From contig CACXCN010000028.1 of assembly GCA_902766095.1 (NCBI GenBank), positions 1 to 64,000 of the forward strand: a stretch of 64,000 nucleotides of DNA, in the 5' to 3' direction. Positions 134 through 16,777 of the stretch are shown one piece after another. The notes beneath the pieces are model-generated. The model searched no databases, was not told where the DNA came from, and saw nothing but the letters and a program-made list of their open reading frames with translations. How positions within the stretch are numbered: position 1 is the stretch's first letter; each line of letters opens with the position of its first letter. Made by a program: the position numbers and the translations under genes. The DNA is from an uncultured Selenomonas sp. (lineage in GTDB: Bacteria; Bacillota; Negativicutes; Selenomonadales; Selenomonadaceae).

Positions 134-187
134 AGAAAGCCATTGCGAAGTAGGTTCATAATAAATGTATATAAATGGGAGAAAATA

Positions 188-1264
188 ATGAGTAGAGAAA
201 AAATTGGAATATTATCGGGGAAATTTTCGATAGGTCTATTATCTCATATATATGCATTTTACGAAATGGGAAATAAGTGTAATTTTGAGTGCTATATGAT
301 TCTTGCAAATGGGTATAGGAAATTTATCGATGTAGATAATGAACGAAAAAATATCATATACATCAATCCAATTTATAAAATACATTTGCCTAAACTTGAT
401 TGCTTAATAATATATAATATATCGTATATTGATAATATCATAATAGATAAAATAAGGAAAAATAAACTCGCCAAGGTAATTTTTGTATACCATGAGCCGT
501 GGACAACATGGAAAAAAGAATTAGTTAGAGAACATACTCCTATAAATATCATAAAGGCTATAGGAAGACACTACTTGGCCAATAGAATTCTGAAGAAAGC
601 AGATGAAATATGGCTACCATCTAAGCATGCTAGAGAAATATTTACCCAATATTATGGAGAAAAGTATCAATATGCAGAAATACCTCTTATATTTTTACGA
701 GAAAAAAGTAACGGTAATGAGGACAGAAAATATTTTTCTTACATAGCTACGGTATCGTATCAAAAACGATTTAAGGAATTTTTAGATTTTATCGCATATG
801 CATCAAAGAGAAATAAACAGCTTAAATTTCTGATTGCGACAAGATCTAATATAGAGAAATATCTAACCAGAGAAATCAAACATATGATAGATGCTGGATG
901 TCTTGAAGTACATCATGGTAGAGAATTATCAATCGCAGAAATTAACTATTATTATTCTGTGACATGGTGCAACTGGTTATTATACAGATCATCTACCCAG
1001 AGCGGAGTATTTGCCAAAGCATGTATGTTAGGGACGCCATGCGTGGTATCTGATTTACCAGCATTTACTGAATATGTTAAAAATAAAGATCAAATTATCA
1101 GAATGGATGCATCTAACGAAGAAATTTATTCGAAAATCATGATGATAAAAAACAATCTTACTTGCGAGATAGAGCAAGCAAAAAAAATTTACTGCAAGAA
1201 CTTTTCAATTGATGCGAATGCGGATTTATTTAAAGAAAGGATAATAAATGTCATTAACGGATGA
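188..1264 (+). CDS. GT-B fold glycosyltransferase (family 4-like)
   Basis: A 358-residue putative cytoplasmic glycosyltransferase that would add a sugar to a lipid-linked repeat unit. The C-terminal half has the GT-B donor-site pattern: a strand after YFSYIATVSYQKRF, then a region ending GVFAKACMLGTPCVVSDLPAF, typical of Glycos_transf_1 proteins. The N-terminal acceptor domain is divergent and gives no specificity. I chose ATG 188 because GGGAG at 177-181 lies six bases upstream; a TTG start at 143 would have no such site. The gene overlaps the next one by 17 bases, so the two are probably co-transcribed. Very low G+C suggests horizontal acquisition of the cluster. Donor and acceptor sugars are unknown. 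Confidence 0.8.
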   Translation: MSREKIGILSGKFSIGLLSHIYAFYEMGNKCNFECYMILANGYRKFIDVDNERKNIIYINPIYKIHLPKLDCLIIYNISYIDNIIIDKIRKNKLAKVIFVYHEPWTTWKKELVREHTPINIIKAIGRHYLANRILKKADEIWLPSKHAREIFTQYYGEKYQYAEIPLIFLREKSNGNEDRKYFSYIATVSYQKRFKEFLDFIAYASKRNKQLKFLIATRSNIEKYLTREIKHMIDAGCLEVHHGRELSIAEINYYYSVTWCNWLLYRSSTQSGVFAKACMLGTPCVVSDLPAFTEYVKNKDQIIRMDASNEEIYSKIMMIKNNLTCEIEQAKKIYCKNFSIDANADLFKERIINVING

Positions 1265-2210
1265 TACGATATATGTAGCTTTTTCTGTAAAGGATTTGAC
1301 GGGTAATTATTGTATGTATGCAGGTGCAGCAATCAAATCATTGCTCCTACATAATTCTAATAAAAAAATCGTAATTTATATACTTAATGATGGGAAAATT
1401 ACAGATCAAAATATAAAATATTTTCATGAAATGACAAAGGGGATTAATGCAGAAATCAATTTTATTACTGTTAAAATTGATAATAAGATACGAAACATGA
1501 AAATGATAGTAGAGGGCTTCTTATCTGAGGGGGCTCTTTACAGGTTATTAATAGCAGATTATTTACCAAAATATATAAATCGTATTTTATATTTAGACTG
1601 CGATGTAATAGTTGATGGTGATATAACAGCATTATTCTCAATGCAATTAGATAAATCTGTAGCTGCAGTGAAGGATTCTGGGATAATTAAGAATTACCGT
1701 ATTATGAAAAAAAACATGGCACTGTTCAATCCTGATAGATATTTTAATTCAGGAGTCATTGTGATGAATTTGCATAAAATAAGGCAGGAACATAATCTTC
1801 TTTTAGAATGCAATGATTATCTTAATAAGTTCCCTAAAGATCCTTTTTCAGATCAATCAGCATTAAATTATGTATTCAAAAATGATTGCAAATTTATATC
1901 AGAAAAATATAATAAATTTCCAAGTAGAGAGAGCCGACCGGGAGATGCTATTATTTGGCATTTTAGTGGCGCAAACAAACCATGGAAGACAAGATTTTCC
2001 AGTATAGATAAAATATGGTGGCATAATTTACGATTGTCTCCATGGGGGAGTGATGTAAATAAGCTATTTGACCTATATTCAAAAATAGTTGATCCACTGG
2101 ATTATGCATTGCTTCATTATCCATCAGGTTCAAAAAGGAGTTTTTTTAAAAATGTTTTCAAGAGAACAATTTACGAGATCAAATTGATAGGTAATAACTA
2201 TTTCTTCTGA
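1248..2210 (+). CDS. Family 8 glycosyltransferase (LgtC/GspA-like)
   Basis: A 320-residue GT-A glycosyltransferase of family GT8, whose members use UDP-glucose or UDP-galactose with a divalent metal. The metal-binding DxD motif is in RILYLDCDVIVDGD near residue 120. Family landmarks follow in order: FNSGVIVMNL, SDQSALN and the late HFSGANKPW box, whose His completes the metal site in LgtC. The start is supported by AAAGG seven bases upstream, inside the end of the preceding gene. It is the second gene of the AT-rich capsule or O-antigen operon and probably extends the same oligosaccharide. Linkage and acceptor cannot be deduced. Confidence 0.88.
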   Translation: MSLTDDTIYVAFSVKDLTGNYCMYAGAAIKSLLLHNSNKKIVIYILNDGKITDQNIKYFHEMTKGINAEINFITVKIDNKIRNMKMIVEGFLSEGALYRLLIADYLPKYINRILYLDCDVIVDGDITALFSMQLDKSVAAVKDSGIIKNYRIMKKNMALFNPDRYFNSGVIVMNLHKIRQEHNLLLECNDYLNKFPKDPFSDQSALNYVFKNDCKFISEKYNKFPSRESRPGDAIIWHFSGANKPWKTRFSSIDKIWWHNLRLSPWGSDVNKLFDLYSKIVDPLDYALLHYPSGSKRSFFKNVFKRTIYEIKLIGNNYFF

Positions 2211-2231
2211 AAATAAAGGTGGAAATGAAAG

Positions 2232-3290
2232 ATGGTAGTTTATATCACATTTTTATTATTTTCTACCCTAATGGTCTTTATAAATAAGATTACAAGACGC
2301 TATTATTCGCTAAATAGTTTAATTTATTGGATTGGCGGAATATATTTAATTTTCATAGCTGGTTCAAGAGATGTTTCAGTCGGAATAGATACATCTAGCT
2401 ATTATTCATACTTTAATAGAGATATTCCAATTGATGAAATTGCTGAGTATTATCATTATACGGGGCAACTATTTTGGTATATGATGTATTATGTAAAGGG
2501 GTATTTAGGAGATTATAGAGTCGTTGTTTATCTAACTTCGCTTTTAAGTATTGGCTTATTATTTTATGTTGTGAAACATAAATCATATTCCCCATATTTG
2601 TCCATGGTAATCTATATGGCTTTGGGCTTTTATGCAATAGGACTAAATATTATACGCGAGTATTTAGGGATTGCAGTTTACATGCTTGCGGTTTATAATC
2701 TTGCGAATGGAAAGAAGAAAAAATTTTTACTTATAACTACAATCGCTTTTTTTATCCATCCATCGTTAATTTTAGGGTACTTGCTTTATTTTGTATATGA
2801 CAAAAAGATAAATATAAAAATTGTTACGTTATATCTTCTTTCGGGCATTACTCTTTTTATTTTTTTTAAAATCATCCTTTCAGTTGTAATAATGGCATTA
2901 TATGGAGGAGATGAAGCTATATTATCGTTGTTAGGGGAAGACGGTGGCGGAAAACTTACATTTATATTATATATATTGTTGTTATTTGTTGCTACAGTAT
3001 TGAAAAATGATATTATAAGTGTTGATAAAAATAATTTGATATATATACATATGATGTATATTGCGACAATTATTCAGTCAGCAACTTTTTTATTTCCAAT
3101 AGCCAGTCGTGCTGCCTATATATACAGTATTGCACTGATAATATTGATTCCTAATATTATTCATTCAATTAGAAATGTGTATGCTCGTGTATATTCAACG
3201 GTTCTATTAGTACTAGTTTGCTGGGGAATGTACTTTTTGAAATTTTACAATTTGCAAGGAGCTTATCCGTATAAATTCTTCTTCTTATGA
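2232..3290 (+). CDS. EpsG/Wzy-like polysaccharide polymerase
   Basis: A 352-residue integral membrane protein with about ten predicted hydrophobic segments. The signature GSRDVSVGIDTSSY, about 45 residues in, matches the EpsG family, in which an Arg and a GxDTxxY patch follow the second membrane span. EpsG and Wzy proteins are proposed to polymerise lipid-linked repeat units on the outer face of the inner membrane. With the Wzx-like flippase at 7679 this implies a Wzx/Wzy-type pathway. An AAAGGTGG-type ribosome site lies about nine bases upstream. It is the only polymerase candidate in the cluster. Confidence 0.75.
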   Translation: MVVYITFLLFSTLMVFINKITRRYYSLNSLIYWIGGIYLIFIAGSRDVSVGIDTSSYYSYFNRDIPIDEIAEYYHYTGQLFWYMMYYVKGYLGDYRVVVYLTSLLSIGLLFYVVKHKSYSPYLSMVIYMALGFYAIGLNIIREYLGIAVYMLAVYNLANGKKKKFLLITTIAFFIHPSLILGYLLYFVYDKKINIKIVTLYLLSGITLFIFFKIILSVVIMALYGGDEAILSLLGEDGGGKLTFILYILLLFVATVLKNDIISVDKNNLIYIHMMYIATIIQSATFLFPIASRAAYIYSIALIILIPNIIHSIRNVYARVYSTVLLVLVCWGMYFLKFYNLQGAYPYKFFFL

Positions 3291-3300
3291 GGTGATAATA

Positions 3301-4242
3301 ATGAATTATAGCTATAAAATAAAATTTATAGAAAATCTTGTCCCATATTTTAGGGAATTTGGCATAAAATTTTCAACTGTTTATCTTATGGATGCTATGT
3401 TAAAAAAATATTCCCATAGACATCATCATATTAGAAAATATCTGAGAAAGGATTTTGCAAATATAGATTTGGAAAATGATATACCTGAATGTAAATTGGC
3501 CGATGATTTTAATATATGGGTACTATGGTGGCAAGGAGAAGAGAAAATACCACCAATTATTAAAATTTGCTATACATATTTAATAAACCACTGTAAAGGA
3601 TATGAGGTTAATCTTATTACTAAATATAATTATGACACCTATATAGATTTACCTTCAAATATTCTGAAGAAATTTAAAAATGGAAACATGACGATAACAG
3701 ATTTTTCTGATATATGCAGATTAGCATTGTTAGATAAATATGGTGGATTATGGATTGATAGTACGGTTTTACTCACGGATGATATTATAAAATATCCATT
3801 GATTTATACTGAAAGATTTTTTTCTTTGAAATTTGCTCAAATGGATACATCTTTTTTTGAGGTTTCTTATGGAAGATGGTCCGTTTATTTGATGGGAAGC
3901 GCTTATATACATTATCCATTATATAATTTGGCACTTCGTATTTATTACAAATACTGGAATGAGCATGATATTGCAATAGACTATTTCTTAACCGACTTTA
4001 TTTTTGATTATTTGTATGAACATAGCAATATGATTAAAGAAGATATTGATCATTTGCCAATTAATAATAAAAATCATTTGGAATTAGCACACATTATGGA
4101 AAATAAATACAATGAAACTTTTTATGAAAAATTGTTATCCGATTGTATTTTTCATAAACTTACTAGAAAACAGTCATGGGATTTTACAAATCAGGATACA
4201 TTTTTGGGCCATATAATAAAAGATATGCCTAATGAAAAATAA
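3301..4242 (+). CDS. Capsular polysaccharide synthesis glycosyltransferase (Caps_synth/GT32-like)
   Basis: A 313-residue protein of the capsular polysaccharide synthesis glycosyltransferase group. The key region near residues 140-160 reads DFSDICRLALLDKYGGLWID, the DxD-containing sugar-nucleotide and metal site of GT32/OCH1-like enzymes. Upstream, the IWVLWWQGEE segment is also typical (WxxWWQG). ATG 3301 is preferred over an in-frame GTG at 3292, because GAGGTG at 3289-3294 is correctly spaced for 3301 and would overlap the GTG. The ribosome site overlaps the stop codon of the polymerase gene, indicating coupling. Sugar specificity is unknown. Confidence 0.82.
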   Translation: MNYSYKIKFIENLVPYFREFGIKFSTVYLMDAMLKKYSHRHHHIRKYLRKDFANIDLENDIPECKLADDFNIWVLWWQGEEKIPPIIKICYTYLINHCKGYEVNLITKYNYDTYIDLPSNILKKFKNGNMTITDFSDICRLALLDKYGGLWIDSTVLLTDDIIKYPLIYTERFFSLKFAQMDTSFFEVSYGRWSVYLMGSAYIHYPLYNLALRIYYKYWNEHDIAIDYFLTDFIFDYLYEHSNMIKEDIDHLPINNKNHLELAHIMENKYNETFYEKLLSDCIFHKLTRKQSWDFTNQDTFLGHIIKDMPNEK

Positions 4243-4260
4243 TATATGGAAGGATATAAT

Positions 4261-5418
4261 ATGGAAAAAAAGATAGTAGTTGTTCATTTTTACGATGTGT
4301 TAGCATACCCACCAGTAATAAATTTAGTAGATTGCTTGTTAGCAAATAATCAATATGTTACGCTTATATGCTTTAACGGAGACAGTTTGCCAGGCAGGAT
4401 TTTAAATCATAAAAGATTTCGACTTGTAAATCTAAAGAATTTAAAGAATGAAAATATATTTGATTCTTTTAAAATAAAAAAATATCTTGTGACTACAGGT
4501 AGAAAATTAGTAGCAAAGGAAATGGAACATTCAGATATATTGTGGACTACTACGGACTATACTGTACGTTGGCTTGGTAAAATGGTTTTTAAATATAAGC
4601 ATATTATGCAGTTGATGGAACTTATAAGATATTATCCGATAATTCCTAAAATAATGAAATACTGTAAGTTTAAGTATCCAATACAAAAAGTTGCTCAAAA
4701 TGCGAAAAAAGTAGTTGTGCCTGAAATAAATAGAGCTTATATACAAAAAACATGGTGGAATTTAAACAGTGTACCATCTGTGTTACCTAATAAACCATAT
4801 TATTTTCCTTTAGAAGAACAAGTACACGATGATAATATACAAGAAAAAATAGAATTAATTAAAAAAGATAAACGAAAAAAAATTTTGTATAGTGGTGGCA
4901 TGTGGGGTGATAGAGACTTTTCTCAATTAATAGAAAGCATGAGTATTATTGGGAGTGAATATTCTTTATATTTTATGGGAATACTGCCAGAATCTTATAA
5001 GGATAAGTTTTATTCTATGATTGAAGGAAAAAATAATATAATTTATCTTGGATTATTTCCGGCTCCTCTTCATTTGCTATTATATAAATATGCCGATATT
5101 GGTGTACTACCATATAAAGCAGGAAAGTTTGATGACATAACATATCTATCAGAGCTTAATGCGCTCTATTGCGCACCAAATAAGTTGTTTGAGTATGCCG
5201 GCGCAGGACTTCCGATGATAGGTACAGATGTCTTGGGATTGCGTATGGCATTTGAAAAATATAATATTGGAGTATGTTGTTCAAAATTATCAGGTGAAGA
5301 ACTAAAAAATGGAATAATCTATATTGAACATAATTACTTAGAGATGAAAGAAAATTGCAGAAAATTTTATGATAGCGTGGATCTAGATAAAATAGTTATG
5401 GATGTCATCGATATTTGA
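4261..5418 (+). CDS. GT-B glycosyltransferase (group 1/GT4 family)
   Basis: A 385-residue GT-B glycosyltransferase. It opens with a Rossmann strand (KKIVVVHFYDV). The donor domain starts near KILYSGGMWGDRDF and continues through YLGLFPAPL and the family-typical CAPNKLFEYAGAGLPMIGTD, where the K-E pair contacts the donor phosphate and ribose in GT4 enzymes. ATG 4261 has GGAAGG about seven bases upstream; an in-frame ATG at 4246 has no site. It lies 18 bases after the preceding gene and is the last member of the first AT-rich operon block before a 1-kb gap. Confidence 0.83.
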   Translation: MEKKIVVVHFYDVLAYPPVINLVDCLLANNQYVTLICFNGDSLPGRILNHKRFRLVNLKNLKNENIFDSFKIKKYLVTTGRKLVAKEMEHSDILWTTTDYTVRWLGKMVFKYKHIMQLMELIRYYPIIPKIMKYCKFKYPIQKVAQNAKKVVVPEINRAYIQKTWWNLNSVPSVLPNKPYYFPLEEQVHDDNIQEKIELIKKDKRKKILYSGGMWGDRDFSQLIESMSIIGSEYSLYFMGILPESYKDKFYSMIEGKNNIIYLGLFPAPLHLLLYKYADIGVLPYKAGKFDDITYLSELNALYCAPNKLFEYAGAGLPMIGTDVLGLRMAFEKYNIGVCCSKLSGEELKNGIIYIEHNYLEMKENCRKFYDSVDLDKIVMDVIDI

Positions 5419-5641
5419 TGAGATTGTTAAAGTAAATGCGTAAATCTATATAGGGATAATGGCATTTATGAAATATAATTTCACCATCAGTACTATAAAA
5501 TTGGATTTATGCCTCGAACTTCTAGTCTAGATATTTTTACCATTGCTAATGCAGTCTTTCGTCCGGGAGCCATAGGCTACGCGCGTGGAAATCTCTCAAA
5601 TAGAATGTTTCGTTATTACAATCTTTCAGCATAACTAGCAT

Positions 5642-5668
5642 ATTAAAAAGATTGCAGCTTTTGCTGCG
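5642..5668 (-). terminator. Rho-independent terminator of the DUF1659/DUF2922 unit
   Basis: Read on the minus strand, GCAGC-AAAA-GCTGC (5654-5667) is followed by AATCTTTTTAAT. The short G+C-rich stem with a T-rich tail fits a simple intrinsic terminator and lies about 100 bases beyond the end of the DUF2922-like frame. Confidence 0.55.
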
Positions 5669-5765
5669 GCCCTCTGAGAAGTCAGATAGAGAAAACCCAT
5701 CATGCATGCCTGGTGTTATCGCCGTTGCGTATAGCTTTTGTAGGAAACGTCCAGACGAGGTATCA

Positions 5766-5894
5766 TCAGGCGATTTCGGCGTCGTCCATCGACTCAGTGT
5801 AGACACGATCTATGACCATGGGATAGGCGAATTTGCTGATGAGGAACTTCTTGTCGTTCGACATTTCGAATTCGATTTTCAGAGTCTTAGTCAT
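5766..5894 (-). pseudogene. Truncated DUF2922-like small protein
   Basis: A 42-residue minus-strand frame starts MTKTLKIEFEMSNDKKF, which resembles the N-terminus of DUF2922 proteins, normally about 70-75 residues and of unknown function. A GAAAG-type ribosome site lies upstream. The second half (ending MDDAEIA) no longer matches the family as I know it, and the frame stops early at two adjacent TGA codons. I see no convincing continuation in the other frames. It follows the DUF1659-like frame by about 120 bases, the usual order of this gene pair. I infer a decayed copy, though a short variant cannot be excluded. Confidence 0.45.
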
Positions 5895-6013
5895 GTTCAT
5901 TCATTCTTTCTGCTGATGCTTCCTTGCGGTTGACTGCTCTAGGCCTTCCTTGGCCAGAGATATCATAGGTGGTTGCTACGTGGCTTTTCCTGACCTGCCG
6001 GGACAGCCTTTGC

Positions 6014-6238
6014 TTAGGCGGCAGTGGCTGCGAGTGCAACGGCATTCGTGCGGGAGACGCTGGCGAGCGGATAGTCCTGCAGGCCGGCCAGACTCTGAGC
6101 GAAGGCATATACGTTGTCATCGCTGGCTGCGGGATTGATGTGTTGGATGGTGCGACAGACCGTGGTTTGCTTGCAGCCGCCATCCGTTGACATAAATTTC
6201 CGATTGAGCTTGCTGGTTTCATTATTGCATGTTGCCGT
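6014..6238 (-). pseudogene. DUF1659-like gene with lost start codon
   Basis: The minus strand holds an uninterrupted 74-codon frame ending in TAA. Its last 40 residues are strongly DUF1659-like (NPAASDDNVYAFAQSLAGLQ, then SVSRTNAVALAA), and the earlier KFMSTDGGCKQTT fits the first part of the family. The length equals the usual 70-75 residues. The codon where Met is expected is ACG, and no good Shine-Dalgarno sequence precedes it. The N-terminal third also looks altered. I therefore call it a recently inactivated gene. Translation from the internal ATG at codon 16 would lose the first strand. Function of the family is unknown. Confidence 0.6.
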
Positions 6239-6497
6239 TTTTTCATGGCTGTCCAGAGATTCTTTCTTTGCTCGGCGGCGGTTACACTTATATACATGCG
6301 TTTTCGAGGGCTTTTTATCGGGGAAAAAATTTCAGTGATGAATATGCTATCAGGGGAAATTATATGTGAGAGCAGCGAGATGATGTTAGAAAAATGAACG
6401 ATGGACAGATGCTTCAACTAGGGGAATATATTCTAAAACATTGCACATCAGCAGACGTTTAGGCGTGAGTGAACAGTTGCATAATGAGGCAGAAACA

Positions 6498-7658
6498 ATG
6501 GATGTTAAAGACAATTTTCTTTATATAGTATTACGTGTATCAAATTGGTTTACAAACAGAATTATAGATTCATTTTTTAAAGTATATAACAAGAATAAGA
6601 CTCCACTTATAGAACGTTTTTTCGCCAAATTTTTTAAAGCAATAAATTTTCTTTCTAGCCCTTATCGTAGATTGTTTAGATATTATATCTATGACATAGC
6701 TGATGAAATAGTTGATGAGGAATATCTTGAGGATGATATAGGCATAGTTATTCAGGGACCTTTGGCAAAAGAAATGACATTAATTACAGCGCTTAGATAT
6801 AGACGGTTATGCCCATATGCTCCTATCGTTATATCGACATGGAAACAGGATGCGTTATTGTCAGAATCATTTAAGCAAATATGCACGGATAACAACATAG
6901 ACATAGTTACAAGTATATTTCCAGATCAACGAATAAAATGGAACCTGAATTTACAAGTTACCACTTCTCATAATGGCGTTGAATATATTTGCAGAAAATA
7001 TACTAAGCTGAAATATATTTTGAAATGTCGTACTGACCAAATTATTTTACGCCGTGATTTTCCATTTATATTGAAAAATGCTCTAGAAATGTTTCCTCCT
7101 ATAGGTGATGCAGTAACTAGCAGAGTGGTTTTTTTAGGAGCAAGGAATTCATATAAATATACCCCATTTGATTTATCAGATTTTTTAATTTTTGGTGAAA
7201 AAACATATGTAAGGATGATGTACGATATACCTAAATTGGATATCAAAGAAAGACATGAAAAAATATTGTTAGACGTGAAGAATAAAATAAATGCGTATGA
7301 AAAAAATAATATTCGCGCTGTAAATATGTATGATAAAGAGAAAATAAAACAGTGGAGCAGGTTGAGCGCTACTTTTGATTTTCCAGAGATATATTTGGCA
7401 CGCAATTTTTATAATAAAATTGCAGGTGATATTATAGCAGAAAGAAATATCCAAACATATTGGTCATTTTTGAAAAGGTATGCTATTATCATCGATAGCA
7501 ACCTTTTAATGATGTATTGGCCAAAATATTTTGAAGGCTATAGGATTTTTAGCGCTTATATTCCTAATACTGGAGAATGTGGGGGCCTAGATTATGCAAC
7601 ATGGCTAGATATATATTTGCATTATGATGAAGCAACCGGATTAATAAGTGATTATTAA
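6498..7658 (+). CDS. WavE-family LPS/polysaccharide biosynthesis protein
   Basis: A 386-residue protein resembling WavE, a Vibrio cholerae LPS-core biosynthesis protein of unknown biochemical activity that is usually taken to be a glycosyltransferase. The signature DIGIVIQGPL, followed 40 residues later by APIVISTWKQD, is the conserved entry of this family. Further on, KYILKCRTDQIILRRDF carries the conserved RTDQ box. An N-terminal stretch of about 70 residues precedes the domain. ATG 6498 follows TGAGG with nine-base spacing; the in-frame TTG at 6441 has no site. Strongly AT-rich like the upstream operon, but separated from it by the decayed DUF1659 segment. Confidence 0.8.
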   Translation: MDVKDNFLYIVLRVSNWFTNRIIDSFFKVYNKNKTPLIERFFAKFFKAINFLSSPYRRLFRYYIYDIADEIVDEEYLEDDIGIVIQGPLAKEMTLITALRYRRLCPYAPIVISTWKQDALLSESFKQICTDNNIDIVTSIFPDQRIKWNLNLQVTTSHNGVEYICRKYTKLKYILKCRTDQIILRRDFPFILKNALEMFPPIGDAVTSRVVFLGARNSYKYTPFDLSDFLIFGEKTYVRMMYDIPKLDIKERHEKILLDVKNKINAYEKNNIRAVNMYDKEKIKQWSRLSATFDFPEIYLARNFYNKIAGDIIAERNIQTYWSFLKRYAIIIDSNLLMMYWPKYFEGYRIFSAYIPNTGECGGLDYATWLDIYLHYDEATGLISDY

Positions 7659-7678
7659 GAGAGTGGAGAGGGTATCAA

Positions 7679-8944
7679 ATGCAATCTGAGCGTAAGACCA
7701 TTCTGGAGAGCCTAGTGTCATTGTTCAGTATCAGGTCTCTAGATTATATACTGGCGTTCATCACCTTCCCCTTTCTGACACATATGTTGGGGGTAGAAAG
7801 ATATGGCGCTATAGGATTTGCTCAGAGTCTGGTGCAGTATTTCGTCCTGATTGTATCGTATGGGTTCAATCTCACTGCCCCACGCGATATAGCGATGAAT
7901 GCTAGTCGCGATGAGCGTGGAAATCTTTTCGTAGCCATATTTGGTGCCAAGGTAGTTCTCTTTTTTGTTTCAAGTGTTGTTTATTGGGGAATAGTGATTT
8001 TGGTGCCTTTTTTTCGTGTAGACTGGTCGATATATGCTGCCGTTTATATGATGATGCTGGGAGAGGTGCTTTTTCCGGTCTGGTTTTTCCAAGGCATTGA
8101 GAAAATGCGCTACATTACTTATTCTACTATAATCGCACGCATCATTACGGTTTCGGCCTTGTTGCTAGTGGTGCGCGGCCCAGAAGATGCATTTTGGGCA
8201 GCACTGTTTCAATCTCTGACAACGGTGATGGCTGGGGCGGTATCATTGGTTATCATCGGGAGAAACTATCGCTATGTCTTGCAAAGACCTTCGTGGAAGA
8301 GAATATGGCAACAATTGCATGATGGGTGGCAGATTTTCTTCTCCCAGATTGCAGTGAATCTATATACCGGCAGTAATGTTTTCTTCCTGGGGCTACTGAC
8401 GAATAATACAGTCGTGGGCTATTTTACAGCCGCACAAAAACTGATGCTTGCAGCGAAAAGCATTGTAGATACGACAGCAAGTGCTATTTTTCCTCATACC
8501 AGTAAATTATTGGCAGAATCAGAGGAGAAAGCACATGCATTTCTGCAGGTATGGTTCCGTAGGTTATTTGCTATAGGATTTGTACTATCTTTTGTTGGCT
8601 GTGTAGCTGCTGGTCCTATTGTGCGGATTTTGGTTGGTGATGGGTTCGATGAGTCGATTACAGTCCTCAGGATTTTTGTCTGGATACCGCTTATTGTGAC
8701 ATTCACTCAGATTTATCTGATTCACACGTTGATACCGCATGGATGGACAGCCGAATATACTCGTATCGTCACGGTGTCAGCTATAGTGAATATGGTCATC
8801 ATATTCCCCTTGATATTGTTGGCGCAGGCTGAGGGCGTAGCTGTAGCTATGGTGATTACAGAGCTGTATGTAGCCTTGGCGTCAATAAGAGCGGTGAATC
8901 GTCGGGGCATATATTATTGGCCGGGATTGTTGCGGAGAAGATAG
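7679..8944 (+). CDS. Wzx-type oligosaccharide flippase
   Basis: A 421-residue polytopic membrane protein of the polysaccharide transporter (MOP/MATE-like) superfamily, expected to flip undecaprenyl-linked repeat units across the inner membrane. The N-terminus (LVSLFSIRSLDYILAFITFP, then LTHMLGVERYG) and the FNLTAPRDIA box are typical of RfbX/Wzx proteins, and about twelve hydrophobic spans fit. GGAGAGGG at 7665-7672 supports the ATG. Its G+C is clearly higher than that of the genes before it, so it marks the transition from the AT-rich block to the chromosomal-composition module downstream. Confidence 0.87.
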   Translation: MQSERKTILESLVSLFSIRSLDYILAFITFPFLTHMLGVERYGAIGFAQSLVQYFVLIVSYGFNLTAPRDIAMNASRDERGNLFVAIFGAKVVLFFVSSVVYWGIVILVPFFRVDWSIYAAVYMMMLGEVLFPVWFFQGIEKMRYITYSTIIARIITVSALLLVVRGPEDAFWAALFQSLTTVMAGAVSLVIIGRNYRYVLQRPSWKRIWQQLHDGWQIFFSQIAVNLYTGSNVFFLGLLTNNTVVGYFTAAQKLMLAAKSIVDTTASAIFPHTSKLLAESEEKAHAFLQVWFRRLFAIGFVLSFVGCVAAGPIVRILVGDGFDESITVLRIFVWIPLIVTFTQIYLIHTLIPHGWTAEYTRIVTVSAIVNMVIIFPLILLAQAEGVAVAMVITELYVALASIRAVNRRGIYYWPGLLRRR

Positions 8945-9038: not shown

Positions 9039-9680
9039 ATGCAGATTTTAGCGCACCGTGGTTGCTGGGGCAATCGTGTGCCACGAAATTCAGAGAAAGC
9101 CTTGCGGCAGGCGTTGGAAAGCGGCTTCGGATTTGAGTCTGATGTCCGGGACTATCAGGGACGCATGGTCATATCGCATAATATCGCAGATGAGACATCA
9201 CCGAAGGCAGAGCAGATATTCAGCTGGCTGCATGATTTCGGTGACAGATATACATTCGCTGTAAATATAAAGGCGGATGGACTGAAGGAGATTCTGCGTG
9301 ACTACGTGCAGAAGTATGAAATCGCGAGATATTTCCTGTTTGACATGTCAGTACCGCAGATGGTTGAGTTCGCCGATATGGGGCTGCGCTTCTTCACGCG
9401 CCGCAGCGAGGTAGAGCCGACACCGGTGATGCTGGACAAGGCGGCCGGCGTATGGATCGATGGTTTTTGGAGCACGGAATGGATTACAGAAGCCGTGCTG
9501 GCGGGCTACCTCGATGATGGTAAAGAGGTATGCTTGGTCTCACCTGACCTACATGGCAAGACCGACTATAGTATATTCTGGGATAGGCTCCGGGGCATGG
9601 ACCTGGATATGAGTCATATGCTTCTTTGCACAGACCATCCGCTCGAGGCCAGAAAATTCTTTGAGGAGGGGTCGAATTGA
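9039..9680 (+). CDS. Glycerophosphodiester phosphodiesterase-like protein
   Basis: A 213-residue TIM-barrel protein of the PI-PLC-like phosphodiesterase superfamily. Catalytic-site elements of GDPD enzymes are present near the N-terminus: AHRG (residues 5-8), then FESDVRD with the metal-binding Glu and Asp, then VISHN with the second His. The protein is shorter than many GDPDs (about 240-300). ATG 9039 is preceded by AAGGAGG at proper spacing; an upstream in-frame ATG at 8988 is less likely because translation from it would run through that site. It overlaps the HAD gene by four bases, tying it to the nucleotide-activation module. Its substrate may be a cluster-specific phosphodiester; this is inference. 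Confidence 0.75.
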   Translation: MQILAHRGCWGNRVPRNSEKALRQALESGFGFESDVRDYQGRMVISHNIADETSPKAEQIFSWLHDFGDRYTFAVNIKADGLKEILRDYVQKYEIARYFLFDMSVPQMVEFADMGLRFFTRRSEVEPTPVMLDKAAGVWIDGFWSTEWITEAVLAGYLDDGKEVCLVSPDLHGKTDYSIFWDRLRGMDLDMSHMLLCTDHPLEARKFFEEGSN

Positions 9681-10306
9681 TAAAGGCAATCCTATTCGAT
9701 ATGGATGGCGTGCTCATCGATGCCAAAGATTGGCATTACGAGGCATTGAACAAGGCGCTAGGACTGTTTGGCTTGGGCATCAGCCGCTATGACCACCTGC
9801 ATACCTTCGATGGTCTACCGACGAAGGTTAAGCTGAAGATGCTCAGCGAGCAGTACTATCTGCCGGAGGAACTGCATCCATTCATCAATCAGGTCAAGCA
9901 GAAATACACGATAGAGCTGACGAATGAGCGTTGCCGCCCGATGTTTCACCATGAGTATGCCCTGTCGCGCTTGCACCAGGCCGGCTACAAGATAGCGGTA
10001 TGCTCGAACTCCATACGCAACACGATCGAGACGATGATGCGTCAGGCTGCGCTGATAGACTATGTAGACCTCATCGTGTCCAATCAGGATGTGAAGAAAG
10101 CTAAACCAGATCCGGAGATGTATCAGACGGCGATAGCGAAGTTCGGCCTGCAGCCCCGTGAATGCCTTGTAGTGGAGGACAACCCAAACGGCATAGCGGC
10201 TGGACGGGCAAGCGGAGCATACGTACTGCCGGTAGCTACAGTATATGATGTGAACTACGACAACATAACGCACACGATAGAGAAATGCGAGGCGGAGCAT
10301 GATTAA
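9677..10306 (+). CDS. HAD-superfamily phosphatase/phosphoglucomutase-like
   Basis: A 209-residue HAD subfamily I enzyme with a helical cap. Motif I is LFDMDGVLID (nucleophile Asp 8 and acid/base Asp 10), motif II is VCSNS, motif III a Lys in KKAKPDP and motif IV VVEDNPNG. The family includes beta-phosphoglucomutases and sugar-phosphate phosphatases. The start is TTG, overlapping the previous stop by four bases, with GAGGAGG at 9663-9669. It overlaps the following nucleotidyltransferase by eight bases. A kinase-free route in which HAD removes or moves a phosphate before nucleotidyl activation is plausible; the actual substrate is unknown. Confidence 0.82.
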   Translation: MIKAILFDMDGVLIDAKDWHYEALNKALGLFGLGISRYDHLHTFDGLPTKVKLKMLSEQYYLPEELHPFINQVKQKYTIELTNERCRPMFHHEYALSRLHQAGYKIAVCSNSIRNTIETMMRQAALIDYVDLIVSNQDVKKAKPDPEMYQTAIAKFGLQPRECLVVEDNPNGIAAGRASGAYVLPVATVYDVNYDNITHTIEKCEAEHD

Positions 10307-11030
10307 TGTACTGATACCGGCGATGGGGAAATCGCTATTCTTCAAGGAAAGCTACTTTCCCAAGCCAATGATAGAAGTGGCTGGCGAGACCATGCTTGAA
10401 AAGGTTGTAGACAACTTCAGGGAACTAGATGATCGCAATTTTATATTCGTATTCGACCAGAAAGACTGTGCCGAATTTCATCTCGATGAGGCGGCTAGGA
10501 TACTGACGCAGCCCAATACAGATATCCTCGTACTAGAGAACCAGACTGCAGGGGCACTATGCACCTGCCTGATGGCGGTGAAATCAATAGACAATGATGT
10601 CCCATTGATAATAGCGAACTGTGACCAGATAATAGATGTGGATTATAGTGCAGTTGTCAGGTACTTCCGTGAGAATGAGGCAGTAGCGGGGACCATCACC
10701 TTTGACAGCATTCATCCGCGCTGGAGCTATGCCAGGGTAACGGACGGACAAATGGTAGAGGTCGCAGAGAAGAGACCTCTATCCAAGCATGCTATAGCCG
10801 GTTTCTATTACTACCAGCATGGCCATGACTTCGTAGAGGCAGCCAAGAAAGTCATACTGAAAGACAACAATTATAACGGCAGATACTACATATCCTCGAC
10901 CATGAACGAGATCATACTGACCGGCGGCAAAGTAATGCCCTATGAGATAAGCCGCAAACAGTACCACTCGTTCTATTCACCGGACAAGATAAAGGAGTAT
11001 GAAAGCAGTCAAAGGAGTACGATGGCATGA
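10299..11030 (+). CDS. Sugar-nucleotidyltransferase-like protein with altered signature
   Basis: A 243-residue GT-A/NTP-transferase-fold protein paralogous to the gene at 11360. The N-terminal nucleotide-binding loop reads LIPAMGKSLFFKESYFPKPM, so the usual GxGxR element (GRGSR in the paralogue) is missing while the downstream FPKPM Lys is kept. The metal-binding region NCDQIIDVD is intact. KRPLSKHAIAGFYYYQHG and YYISSTMNEIILTGG correspond to the substrate half. It may be a catalytically modified or regulatory partner of its paralogue. ATGA-type overlaps on both sides show strict translational coupling. Confidence 0.7.
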   Translation: MINVLIPAMGKSLFFKESYFPKPMIEVAGETMLEKVVDNFRELDDRNFIFVFDQKDCAEFHLDEAARILTQPNTDILVLENQTAGALCTCLMAVKSIDNDVPLIIANCDQIIDVDYSAVVRYFRENEAVAGTITFDSIHPRWSYARVTDGQMVEVAEKRPLSKHAIAGFYYYQHGHDFVEAAKKVILKDNNYNGRYYISSTMNEIILTGGKVMPYEISRKQYHSFYSPDKIKEYESSQRSTMA

Positions 11031-11353
11031 AGACAGCAAGGCTAAGTGAAATGAAGCGCGGCTGGTTTATAGGCGACTTCGAGCCCAGTCTGGACAGGAC
11101 ATGTGCGGTAGAGGTCGCAGTGAAAAGCTATAAGGCAGGCGAACACGAAGAAAAGCATTTCCATAAGATAGCCACCGAATATACTGTGATAATAAACGGG
11201 GAAGTAGAAATGTTTGGCAAAAGATTCGCAGCTGGCGACATAGTCGTATGCGAACCAGGCGACGCGACTGACTTTACGGCGATATCTGATGCGACCAACG
11301 TGGTCGTGAAGCTGCCTGGAGCTAGTCATGATAAATACATATGTGAGGAGTGA
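11027..11353 (+). CDS. Small cupin-domain protein
   Basis: A 108-residue single-domain cupin. The metal-binding motif is visible as EKHFHKIATEYTVIINGEVE (His-x-His with the later Glu), and the second motif as GDIVVCEPGD. Such proteins act as small isomerases, epimerases or ligand sensors. The position between two nucleotidyltransferase genes, with a four-base overlap upstream, points to a step on the same activated precursor. The final metal His of motif 2 is not evident, so a non-enzymatic role is possible. Confidence 0.75.
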   Translation: MKTARLSEMKRGWFIGDFEPSLDRTCAVEVAVKSYKAGEHEEKHFHKIATEYTVIINGEVEMFGKRFAAGDIVVCEPGDATDFTAISDATNVVVKLPGASHDKYICEE

Positions 11354-11359
11354 ATGATT

Positions 11360-12103
11360 ATGTTGAACATAGTTATACCAATGGCGGGGCGTGGCAGTAG
11401 ATTCGCCAAGGCCGGCTACAAGATGCCGAAACCGTTGATAGACGTGCATGGCCGTCCCATGATAGATTATGTCATAAAGAATATAGCTCCTAAAGAAGAG
11501 CATCGCTTCATATTCCTGTGCCTGCAAGATCATCTGGATAAGTATGATATCGAGAAGCACCTCAAGGCGCAGTCGCCTGATTGTGTGATAGTGCCTGTGA
11601 ATAAAGTGACCGAAGGAGCTGCATGCACGGTACTGTTGGCAGAGCACTATATAGACAATGCAGACCCGATGATGATAGCAAACTCGGATCAGTACGTCGA
11701 CATAGATATAAATGACTATCTGGCAGCGGGACAGGGCGCTGATGGCCTGATAATGACGATGTATGCGGACGACCCGAAATGGTCATTCATAAAATTTGAT
11801 GAGGCTGATCATGTGACCATGGTGCGCGAGAAGGAAGTAATATCCAACGAGGCTACCGTCGGGATATACAATTTCGCTCACGGTAGCGACTTTGTGAAGT
11901 ATGCCAACAAAATGATAGACATGAATCTGCGTGTAAACAATGAGTTCTATGTGGCACCAGTGTACAACATGCTGATTGATGATGGGCGCACGATAAACTA
12001 CTACAACATAGGGAGCGTCGACAATGGCATGTACGGACTGGGAATCCCCGATGACTTGAACAGGTTCCTGGCAAATCCGCTTTCGAAAAAGATATTCGGC
12101 TAA
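11360..12103 (+). CDS. Sugar/polyol-phosphate nucleotidyltransferase
   Basis: A 247-residue NTP-transferase-domain protein with the complete nucleotide loop MAGRGSRFAKAG followed by MPKPLIDVHG, the metal region NSDQYVDID, and VGIYNFAHGSDF in the substrate half. It would join a phosphorylated sugar or polyol to a nucleotide, releasing pyrophosphate. GAGGAG at 11345-11350 is nine bases from ATG 11360 and three from ATG 11354, so I prefer 11360. It is the last gene of the module. The nucleotide (CTP, GTP or other) and sugar cannot be read from the sequence. Confidence 0.8.
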   Translation: MLNIVIPMAGRGSRFAKAGYKMPKPLIDVHGRPMIDYVIKNIAPKEEHRFIFLCLQDHLDKYDIEKHLKAQSPDCVIVPVNKVTEGAACTVLLAEHYIDNADPMMIANSDQYVDIDINDYLAAGQGADGLIMTMYADDPKWSFIKFDEADHVTMVREKEVISNEATVGIYNFAHGSDFVKYANKMIDMNLRVNNEFYVAPVYNMLIDDGRTINYYNIGSVDNGMYGLGIPDDLNRFLANPLSKKIFG

Positions 12104-13100: not shown

Positions 13101-13130
13101 TTGCAATACCCCGATGAATCAAGGTATAAT
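13101..13130 (+). promoter_or_regulatory. Sigma-70-type promoter of the Rpn-family gene
   Basis: TTGCAA at 13101-13106 and TATAAT at 13125-13130 are 18 bases apart. The start codon chosen at 13159 lies 29 bases after the -10 box. An upstream ATG at 13114 falls inside the promoter, which argues against it as the start. Confidence 0.65.
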
Positions 13131-13158
13131 TAAGTTAGAATATATATGGGAGCGGGTG

Positions 13159-14010
13159 ATGCATATGGCTATGCCGTTCATGCAGGACGTGGCAGTAAGC
13201 GTGAAGCCTTGGGAAGAACTGACGATAGCAGACAACTTCATATTCCAGGCGGTCATGCGGAAGAAGCGCTGCTGCCGGCGCTTCATAGAGAGCGTACTCG
13301 GAATCAAGGTGAAGAAAATCACTTATCCCGTGCTGACAGAGAAGGATATCAAGGTGCGCTGCGAGAGCAAAGGCGTACGGCTCGATGTTTATGTCGAGGA
13401 TGACCAGGGCAACATCTATGATATCGAGATGCAGACGGCGGATTACGCGCGGCCCGACGAGCTGCCGAAGCGTACCCGCTATTACCAGGCCATGATCGAC
13501 CTCGATGTGCTGAACAAGGGCGAATCTTATGCGAAGCTCCGGCAGACGTACATCATCTTCGTCTGCACGTTCGATCCGTTCACGGCTGGGCGCAGCATAT
13601 ATACTTTCAGAGAGACGTGCCAGGAAGACAAAGGCATCCTCATGGGTGATGAGACGACGAAGATCTTCCTCAATAGCAAGGGCAGCCGCGAAGGCATCAG
13701 CAAGGAGCTGGCGGCTTTCCTCGACTACGTAGAGGGCAAAGCACCATCGAGCAAGTTCACGAAGGATCTGGCCACAGTTGTCGATGAGACAAAAGAGAAC
13801 AAAGACAAGAGGGTGGAATATATGTCGTACATGATGGATATGCTCCGTAGCGAGGAGCGTGGCGAGGAACGCGGAATTGAAAAAGGTCGTAAGGAAGGTA
13901 TAATCAGCACATTTAAGGAATTAGTGAAGGATGGTACCCTGACTATAGAAGCAGCAGCTAAAAAAATGGGAATATCGGTTGACGAATTCCGCAAGAAGGC
14001 TATGCTGTGA
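13159..14010 (+). CDS. Rpn-family PD-(D/E)XK nuclease (transposase-like)
   Basis: A 283-residue member of the Rpn/PD-(D/E)XK nuclease family transposase group, whose E. coli members are DNA endonucleases that promote RecA-independent recombination. The catalytic strand pair is visible as RLDVYVEDDQGN followed by YDIEMQ (Asp, then Glu-x-Gln, the family variant of ExK). The entry motif KPWEELTIADNFIFQAVM is typical. A charged Glu/Arg/Gly-rich linker (RSEERGEERGIEKGRKEG) leads to a C-terminal helix-turn-helix-like segment (TIEAAAKKMGISVDEF). ATG 13159 follows GGGAG at six bases. No terminal repeats of a transposon were seen around it. Confidence 0.85.
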   Translation: MHMAMPFMQDVAVSVKPWEELTIADNFIFQAVMRKKRCCRRFIESVLGIKVKKITYPVLTEKDIKVRCESKGVRLDVYVEDDQGNIYDIEMQTADYARPDELPKRTRYYQAMIDLDVLNKGESYAKLRQTYIIFVCTFDPFTAGRSIYTFRETCQEDKGILMGDETTKIFLNSKGSREGISKELAAFLDYVEGKAPSSKFTKDLATVVDETKENKDKRVEYMSYMMDMLRSEERGEERGIEKGRKEGIISTFKELVKDGTLTIEAAAKKMGISVDEFRKKAML

Positions 14011-15709: not shown

Positions 15710-16777
15710 TCACTGATTATTGCGGTTGCGCTCGTTCTCATGGCGGGTGAGCCAGCGGGAGTCCTGCAGAGTCTGTTTCAGCTGCTGCTGGGCGTCATAG
15801 ATGTCGCCGATGACGAGCTTGCAGGTGACGATCACGGGGACGGCAAGGAACATGCCGGCGGCGCCGAGCAGTTCGCCACCGATGATGATGCCGAGTATGA
15901 TGGCCACAGGGTGGAGATTCAGAGAGTGGCCGATGAGCGTCGGATAGACGAAATTATGGTTCGTCTGCGTGAGTATCAGGTAGAAAATGATCGTCTGGGC
16001 GGCTACGAAGACATTGACTGTGGCCGTCAGGATGACTCCGAAGGCCGAGGCGACCGTAGGTCCGAGCACCGGGATGAATTCGCAGATGCCGGAGAGCACG
16101 GCGAACACGGAGGCATAGGGCAGTCCGCGCACCGTGTAGTAGAGGAATACGATGGTGCCGGATATCAGGCAGATGATGAGCTGGCTGCGGATATAGATGG
16201 TCAGCGAATCGAGTATGCGGTTGAACAGGGCCAGTACGCGGGCATAGTCGCGGCTGGGGAACAGACCGGCGAGGTAGCTTTTGATCTCTTCGCCATCCTT
16301 TATGAAGTAGAAGGTGACGAAGATGATGATGACCATATCGATGAAGCGGCCGAACAGCTCGACGATCATGGAGAGCGATGAGGTCAGTGCTCCGACGCTG
16401 GCGGCGCGGATTTCATTGAACAGGCTGTCGATTTCATCGTTCAGGAAGGGCGAGTTGTCGATGAGCGGTGAGCTGTGCAGCTCCTCGGCTATATGCGGGA
16501 AGTCGCCCACGAATCGTGTCAGCGTCGGCACGAATGTGCTCGATATGACGGCGAACAGGCTGCTGGCCAGCAGCACGACGGCCGCCACGACGAGGCCGGC
16601 AGCCAGTCCGCGCGGCATATGGCGGGCCAGCCGGTCAGCAATCGGGCTCAGCAGCAGCGACAGCAGCAGGGCGATGAAGAATATGAACGCGAACTCCGGC
16701 ATGAGCCAGAACAGCGATATCAATGCGGTGAAGGCTGCAGCAATGATGATGGAAGAGCGATAGGCGCGTATATGCAT
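15710..16777 (-). CDS. AI-2E transporter family (PerM-like) permease
   Basis: A 355-residue inner-membrane protein of the AI-2E transporter superfamily with about eight spans: two hydrophobic pairs in the first 85 residues, a soluble helical section, then spans from about residue 150. The conserved stretch ICEFIPVLGPTVASAFG and the later GEL-containing segment match the family. Members have been linked to quorum-signal export or Na+/H+ exchange; sequence alone does not decide. ATG 16777 is used because GGAG lies seven bases upstream; the frame extends two codons to a TTG. Confidence 0.85.
   Translation of the reverse strand: MHIRAYRSSIIIAAAFTALISLFWLMPEFAFIFFIALLLSLLLSPIADRLARHMPRGLAAGLVVAAVVLLASSLFAVISSTFVPTLTRFVGDFPHIAEELHSSPLIDNSPFLNDEIDSLFNEIRAASVGALTSSLSMIVELFGRFIDMVIIIFVTFYFIKDGEEIKSYLAGLFPSRDYARVLALFNRILDSLTIYIRSQLIICLISGTIVFLYYTVRGLPYASVFAVLSGICEFIPVLGPTVASAFGVILTATVNVFVAAQTIIFYLILTQTNHNFVYPTLIGHSLNLHPVAIILGIIIGGELLGAAGMFLAVPVIVTCKLVIGDIYDAQQQLKQTLQDSRWLTRHENERNRNNQ

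Follow-up and report, generated by a model that had tools for sequence, protein, structure and literature searches.

Pairs of related nucleotidyltransferases are known from the subunits of plant AGPase and from GalU/GalF. In the GMPPB/GMPPA pair, as summarized in PMC11228364, GMPPA is the paralogue without catalytic activity; it binds GDP-mannose and acts as an inhibitor of GMPPB. Here, we describe a five-gene cassette with a comparable pair, termed NT1 and NT2, in a stretch of 64,000 nucleotides (the window) from an uncultured Selenomonas sp. (assembly GCA_902766095.1, contig CACXCN010000028.1, positions 1 to 64,000, from the contig start; G000:C28:1-64000). We read it as a conserved and mobile set of genes for the biosynthesis of one nucleoside diphosphate (NDP)-sugar or NDP-polyol in which NT2 would be the catalyst and NT1 its non-catalytic partner, and we give this reading a probability of about 0.58. 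The cassette consists of the following genes.

9039..9680, forward strand: GDPD-like protein (PI-PLC/GDPD TIM barrel), 213 amino acids (aa), assigned from invariant residues, predicted structure and fold matches
9677..10306, forward strand: HAD-IA phosphatase/phosphomutase-like protein (beta-phosphoglucomutase (beta-PGM)-like), 209 aa, TTG start, assigned from PF13419 (125.6 bits)
10299..11030, forward strand: NT1, nucleotidyltransferase-like paralogue without GxGxR, proposed non-catalytic partner, assigned from PF00483, motifs and tree
11027..11353, forward strand: small cupin, 108 aa, assigned from motif 1, with all Pfam matches below their cut-offs
11354..12103, forward strand: NT2, canonical nucleotidyltransferase with GxGSR, PKP, NxDQ and EK, proposed catalytic subunit, assigned from PF00483 and motifs

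The sequence-only reading had listed these five genes in this order, which stands. It had also joined all of them by 4- to 8-base overlaps, which holds for three of the four joins: GDPD/HAD (4 bases), HAD/NT1 (8) and NT1/cupin (4). At the cupin/NT2 join there is no overlap, and NT2 either abuts at 11354 or follows a 6-base gap to the ATG at 11360. The latter is the likely start (giving 11360-12103), since homologues begin MLN and this ATG sits behind AGGAG.

The two TRANSFERASES of the window, NT1 and NT2, are paralogues with 32% identity over 250 columns (E 5e-35), and both lie above the PF00483 cut-off of 21.2 bits, at 30.9 and 46.1 bits, respectively. The GxGxR loop has a recognized role in the catalytic members of PF00483. 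All 29 complete NT2 rows have it, and none of the 28 NT1 rows or the 13 rows of NT3, a third loop-less paralogue, does; a 30th NT2 row (L065) is broken at its N-terminal end and lies outside this count. The presence of the loop in the second transferase only, first noticed in the window, is thus a family-wide feature. The PK lysine was found in 29/29 NT2 and 24/28 NT1, the metal aspartate of NxDQ in 30/30 and 25/28, and the EK pair in 30/30 and 28/28, respectively. By the combination of GxGxR and PK lysine that marks catalytic PF00483 members, NT2 belongs with them and NT1 does not. Three NT1 (L026, L063 and L065) have lost both the PKP lysine and the metal aspartate, a loss that represents one event because the three rows form a single clade. 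Separately, no annotation exists for the Acetobacter persici NT2 (L065:7989-8761), whose sequence is divided between two reading frames.

In a tree of 82 domains (quick search, no bootstrap, with the L065 NT2 omitted owing to its broken reading frame), all 28 NT1 fell into one clade (SH-like approximate likelihood ratio test 100) and all 13 NT3 into another (100). NT2 needs two changes on this tree, with two strong clades and a loosely placed phage row. Given its single clade, NT1 is an old paralogue and not a recent local copy. NT1 and NT2 are fused in one open reading frame in 12 of the 28 NT1 loci, 7 of these being single annotated coding sequences, and in the fusion loci NT3 follows the fused protein. 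The ratio of nonsynonymous to synonymous substitution (dN/dS; Nei-Gojobori, few changes) was 0.20 for NT1 of L058/L067, where NT2 gave 0.19, and 0.055 for NT1 of L026/L063; these two pairs, the ones close enough to test, suggest purifying selection on NT1. Because of the loop loss, the old clade, the apparent purifying selection and the fusion to NT2, we read NT1 as a retained non-catalytic partner. The structural or regulatory role first suggested for NT1 is thereby well supported, also by the joint loss of lysine and aspartate in one clade.

The gene set, which the sequence-only reading had proposed to look for in other capsule loci, was found again together with its order in several phyla, namely in Selenomonadaceae, Synergistota, Chlamydiota and Alpha- and Gammaproteobacteria, with plasmids as frequent carriers. 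NT1 relatives came from Anaerovibrio, Selenomonas ruminantium, a Synergistaceae metagenome-assembled genome (MAG), a Parachlamydiales MAG, Caulobacter, Rhizobiales, Neorhizobium and Hyphomonadaceae, and from 35 plasmid records (E up to 1e-5, distant matches counted). A search by way of the HAD gene located the cassette in 8 of the 300 genomes from the window's class, a number that includes the genome of the window itself, and in 4 of 289 from the class to which Neorhizobium belongs. Because the genes and their order recur in several phyla, the cassette of the window is not a chance arrangement. It is rare and patchy, as with mobile cassettes. Public annotation calls its genes only "glycosyltransferase family 2", "HAD family phosphatase" or "hypothetical".

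Layouts were compared in 33 sources, the window among them, 28 of which have NT1; L026/L063 and L058/L067 are near-copies. Layout A, with GDPD, HAD, NT1, cupin and NT2 as separate genes, accounts for 15 of the 28 NT1 loci, counting the window and the split L012/L050. In L026, L063, L056 and L065 its genes stand in a permuted order that starts with NT2, and L013 has one extra gene before NT2. Layout B, an NT1-NT2 single open reading frame (~500 aa) followed by NT3 without cupin, accounts for 12 of the 28; one of these (L015) has no GDPD within its stretch. L049 is intermediate, with NT1, NT2 and NT3 separate and no cupin. The cupin occurred in 16 sources and NT3 in 13, never together. The five remaining sources comprise L048, cut at a contig edge; L050, the second half of L012; L024, a phage; L062, with an NT1 remnant only; and L064, a different E. 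coli capsule locus. The L062 remnant (15805-16230, 141 aa) stands beside a HAD gene in Scandinavium goeteborgense, ~2.4 kb from an IS3-family transposase gene. L064 (894-8741) is an E. coli ST131 plasmid capsule locus with a Stealth protein, HAD, APH-like kinase and distant nucleotidyltransferase. Left out of the layout comparison were L043 and L044, which repeat L012 and L014, and L020, L021 and L022, where NT2-like proteins (near 8001-8717, 32-33% identity) occur in uncultured Mycoplasma/Ureaplasma and other cassette genes are absent.

Gene exchange appears to have contributed to the cassette. The window HAD and NT1 are nearest to those of L012 (87% and 67%, respectively), and the window NT2 is nearest to that of L047 (77%), whose NT1 is only 39% identical. 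The Pseudomonas plasmid cassettes L026 and L063 are nearly identical outside HAD: their HAD genes (L026:7276-7950 and L063:8261-8983) differ at 59% of synonymous sites and the other four cassette genes at 2-9%, as after gene replacement. These comparisons indicate that parts of the cassette get exchanged and that it is mosaic.

The HAD protein matched PF13419 (HAD_2) far above the cut-off of 23.8 bits, and its DxD motif appears as DMDGVL in the alignment. Its best NCBIfam subfamily was TIGR02009 (beta-PGM/YqaB), at 116 bits against a cut-off of 153.35. The window HAD shared 53-87% identity with the HADs of all bacterial cassette members, which points to a fixed substrate. In cyanophage S-CAM9, HAD and NT2 are fused in one 461-aa protein, and in phages the NT2 match starts 63-75 bases after HAD in 10 of the 10 HAD-matching records listed (of 67). 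This fusion and adjacency suggest that HAD and NT2 serve linked steps. In cyanophage DSL-LC03 (L076:1797-4977), genes for a HAD, a short GDPD-like protein and a 461-aa protein containing NT2 are near one another.

The GDPD-like protein matched no family in Pfam (E up to 0.1), PF03009 included, or in NCBIfam. An hhalign comparison of its alignment with the genome's own GDPD covered 54 columns only (prob 93), so structure was needed to place it. The predicted structure (predicted local distance difference test (pLDDT) 93.6, predicted template modeling score (pTM) 0.90) had solved GDPDs in all 14 of its top Foldseek rows, the best structural match being the GDPD 2pz0 (Z 20.5, root-mean-square deviation 2.3 over 195 residues), and the model thus indicates a GDPD fold. 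All 31 aligned rows share His6, Arg7, Glu33, Asp35, His47 and Asn76. GDPDs use a His pair for catalysis and acidic residues as metal ligands. The cassette protein keeps the His pair, E33 and D35 and has Asn for the third metal Glu (N76-x-K78), at a site where the genome's ordinary GDPD (L077) reads NIELK; one metal ligand is therefore altered. All 27 plasmid records with this GDPD subfamily also contain an NT2 homologue. Within L077:275-3574, the ordinary GDPD lies between an apparent TagD-type cytidylyltransferase/oxidoreductase fusion and one CDP-glycerol glycerophosphotransferase-like gene, both named by eye.

Cupins are defined by two conserved motifs that carry metal-binding His and Glu. 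Over 16 aligned rows, the cassette cupin keeps motif 1, G(X5)HXH(X4)E(X6)G, and lacks the motif-2 His; motif 1 and the weak Pfam matches are the basis of its assignment.

Upstream of the cassette, bases 143-8944 form a surface-polysaccharide locus, which the five cassette genes directly follow.

143..5418, forward strand: context genes for GT1-like, GT8, EpsG, Caps_synth and GT1-like proteins, assigned from family-model matches
6498..7658, forward strand: WavE-family protein, likely product-using transferase, PF07507 42.7 bits against a cut-off of 27
7679..8944, forward strand: polysaccharide flippase (Polysacc_synt), context gene, PF01943 159.4 bits

A capsule precursor, the product first suspected, fits these glycosyltransferases, EpsG, Caps_synth, WavE and the flippase. 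A capsule-only role was not upheld, as plasmid loci L025 and L061 contain no polysaccharide gene within the stretch fetched around the cassette. The window locus appears to be pieced together, because G+C differs between its segments: 29% over 143-5418, 46-52% in the five cassette genes and 59% from 14052 onward. A segment of ~1 kb (5419-6497) with 45% G+C and no recognized gene lies between transferase genes of 29-30% G+C, and a PDDEXK_2 nuclease-family transposase gene (13114-14010) lies a short distance downstream of the cassette.

Of 300 genomes of the window's class, 11 have WavE (PF07507). They include 7 of the 8 genomes that carry the cassette HAD, against 4 of the remaining 292 (Fisher p 6e-11, a value too small because the genomes share ancestry). 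In 6 of the 8, no more than 10 kb separate WavE from the cassette. Of the other two, G143 has no WavE and G304 has it on a contig other than the one with the cassette, which stops just past HAD. Among 22 further cassette genomes or records, 13 of them plasmid records rather than whole genomes, WavE was present in 11, within 10 kb in 8, and not found in the other 11, so that an obligatory partnership was rejected. WavE is a frequent, not obligatory, partner of the cassette, and we infer that in the window locus the WavE-family protein is the likely glycosyltransferase using the product. A Legionella sainthelensi plasmid (L072:7633-10839) carries a short HAD, an NT2-like transferase and two consecutive WavE-family genes, which again ties this transferase type to WavE.

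An activated sugar or polyol without a name, as proposed from the window, remains the best general reading of the product. In the pathway that we propose, the beta-PGM-like HAD would turn a phosphorylated metabolite into a form accepted by NT2, either as a mutase or as a phosphatase acting on a bisphosphate. NT2, the sole paralogue with GxGxR, would join the HAD product to a nucleoside triphosphate (NTP). NT1, and NT3 too in other lineages, would bind NT2 as a non-catalytic paralogue, possibly also where the chains are separate, and would probably sense substrate or product, much as GMPPA does in its pairing with GMPPB. The cupin, or NT3 replacing it, may have an accessory role as an isomerase or ligand-binding protein, the GDPD-like enzyme may handle a phosphodiester within the same pathway, and the WavE-family glycosyltransferase would be the likely user.

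Several observations weigh against this proposal. The model of the fused NT1-NT2 protein (mean pLDDT 88.0, pTM 0.57) shows no confident domain packing, and Foldseek matches with it cover one domain at a time. Most NT1 retain the lysine, the aspartate and the EK pair, so much of the active site survives. Cyanophages carry HAD-NT2 without NT1, which is therefore not required everywhere. The WavE association is weakened by the shared ancestry of the genomes behind it and by the 11 of 22 further genomes or records with no match. Neighboring genes vary from locus to locus and did not yield the substrate, and the comparisons made gave no substrate evidence.

The alternative that survives best is that both transferases are active on different substrates or NTPs, giving two precursors or two successive nucleotidyl transfers, with NT1 using an alternative nucleotide loop. 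A different substrate had also been raised in the sequence-only reading, and it stays as a rival because most NT1 keep these active-site residues; NT1 is moreover retained as one clade, and has its own pattern, SxFF...Y.FPKP, recurring in one part of it. However, every NT1 lacks GxGxR, one clade of three loci has also lost the lysine and aspartate, and a complex is the simpler reading of the fusion to NT2 and of a third paralogue without the loop. We regard two active enzymes as unlikely.

Quite improbable is a known precursor pathway (dTDP-sugar, GDP-heptose, CDP-polyol or UDP-GlcNAc) in divergent form. The folds and families fit sugar activation, and HddC and RmlA models match NT2 weakly, but all listed reaction-naming NCBIfam models stayed far below their cut-offs, and at these curated cut-offs the idea was rejected. 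NT2 reached none of the RmlA, GlmU, GalU, HddC and MurU equivalogs (best 52.5 against 292.1 bits; HddC 26.6 against 300; RmlA-long 50.1 against 320.25), and the HAD scored 90 bits against 189.4 for the beta-phosphoglucomutase equivalog TIGR01990. No listed equivalog cut-off was reached by any of the five proteins, and no one-to-one match to a described precursor pathway emerged. No description of the cassette or of a locus with the same gene set was found in the literature searched, which left subscription journals mostly outside its reach and in which the WavE query was swamped by the ordinary word "wave". That NT1 is a functionless, decaying leftover of a tandem duplication is highly improbable and was rejected for most lineages: the loop is lost in all NT1, the Pseudomonas/Acetobacter clade shows further loss and Scandinavium keeps a 141-aa remnant, but 28 intact NT1 persist across several phyla in one old clade, with low dN/dS in the two close pairs (few changes).

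Herein, our findings reveal a precursor cassette that is real, conserved and, as far as the literature searched reaches, undescribed. A bolder view, possible but doubtful, is an undescribed NDP-sugar or NDP-polyol pathway spread horizontally over at least four phyla and partly into cyanophages, in which NT2 would be the catalyst within a heteromer that includes one or two dedicated pseudo-nucleotidyltransferases, and the GDPD-fold enzyme, its metal site altered, would be biosynthetic, not degradative. In this view, given the beta-PGM type of the HAD, the product could belong to the rare class of beta-anomeric NDP-sugars. Which glycans bacteria can display depends on their surface-sugar precursors, and a whole precursor cassette with a built-in pseudo-enzyme in unrelated bacteria could reveal a building block not known before and the means by which a pseudo-nucleotidyltransferase in bacteria regulates the enzyme it is paired with.

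The closest solved relative of both transferases is PDB 4evw, a structural-genomics entry for a nucleoside-diphosphate-sugar pyrophosphorylase of Vibrio cholerae RC9 (NT1 E 1.3e-10, NT2 E 1.2e-20), which is also the top fold match of the fused NT1-NT2 model; the single paper naming it in the literature search appears to concern a crystallization-prediction server. With glycerophosphodiester phosphodiesterase (GDPD), the cassette protein shares the TIM barrel and the catalytic His, Glu and Asp, but it has Asn for the third metal Glu, no Pfam match, and on plasmids occurs only alongside transferases. The cassette HAD has the fold and motifs of the beta-phosphoglucomutase/YqaB/HxpB HAD-IA subfamily (PDB relatives 3e58 and 3dv9), unlike which it stays below every listed equivalog cut-off and has its own conserved DGLPT and SNS loops. 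A distant sister cassette with a tandem nucleotidyltransferase of 540-588 aa was found on an E. coli IncR plasmid (L069:6022-13224), in Azospirillum brasilense (L070:8157-15541) and in Hirschia (L071:9212-19771). It likewise combines a GDPD-like protein with the N-x-K signature, a HAD and tandem nucleotidyltransferases, but it has its own PRK-family kinase, class II aldolase and GtrA/GT2 output, and its two nucleotidyltransferase domains fall in separate clades and both have the loop, unlike NT1 of the window. As outlined in PMC11228364, GMPPB/GMPPA also places a catalytic nucleotidyltransferase beside a retained paralogue that lost catalytic motifs; the present system differs in being a bacterial cassette of short 240-aa domains, often in one fused chain, with HAD, GDPD and cupin.

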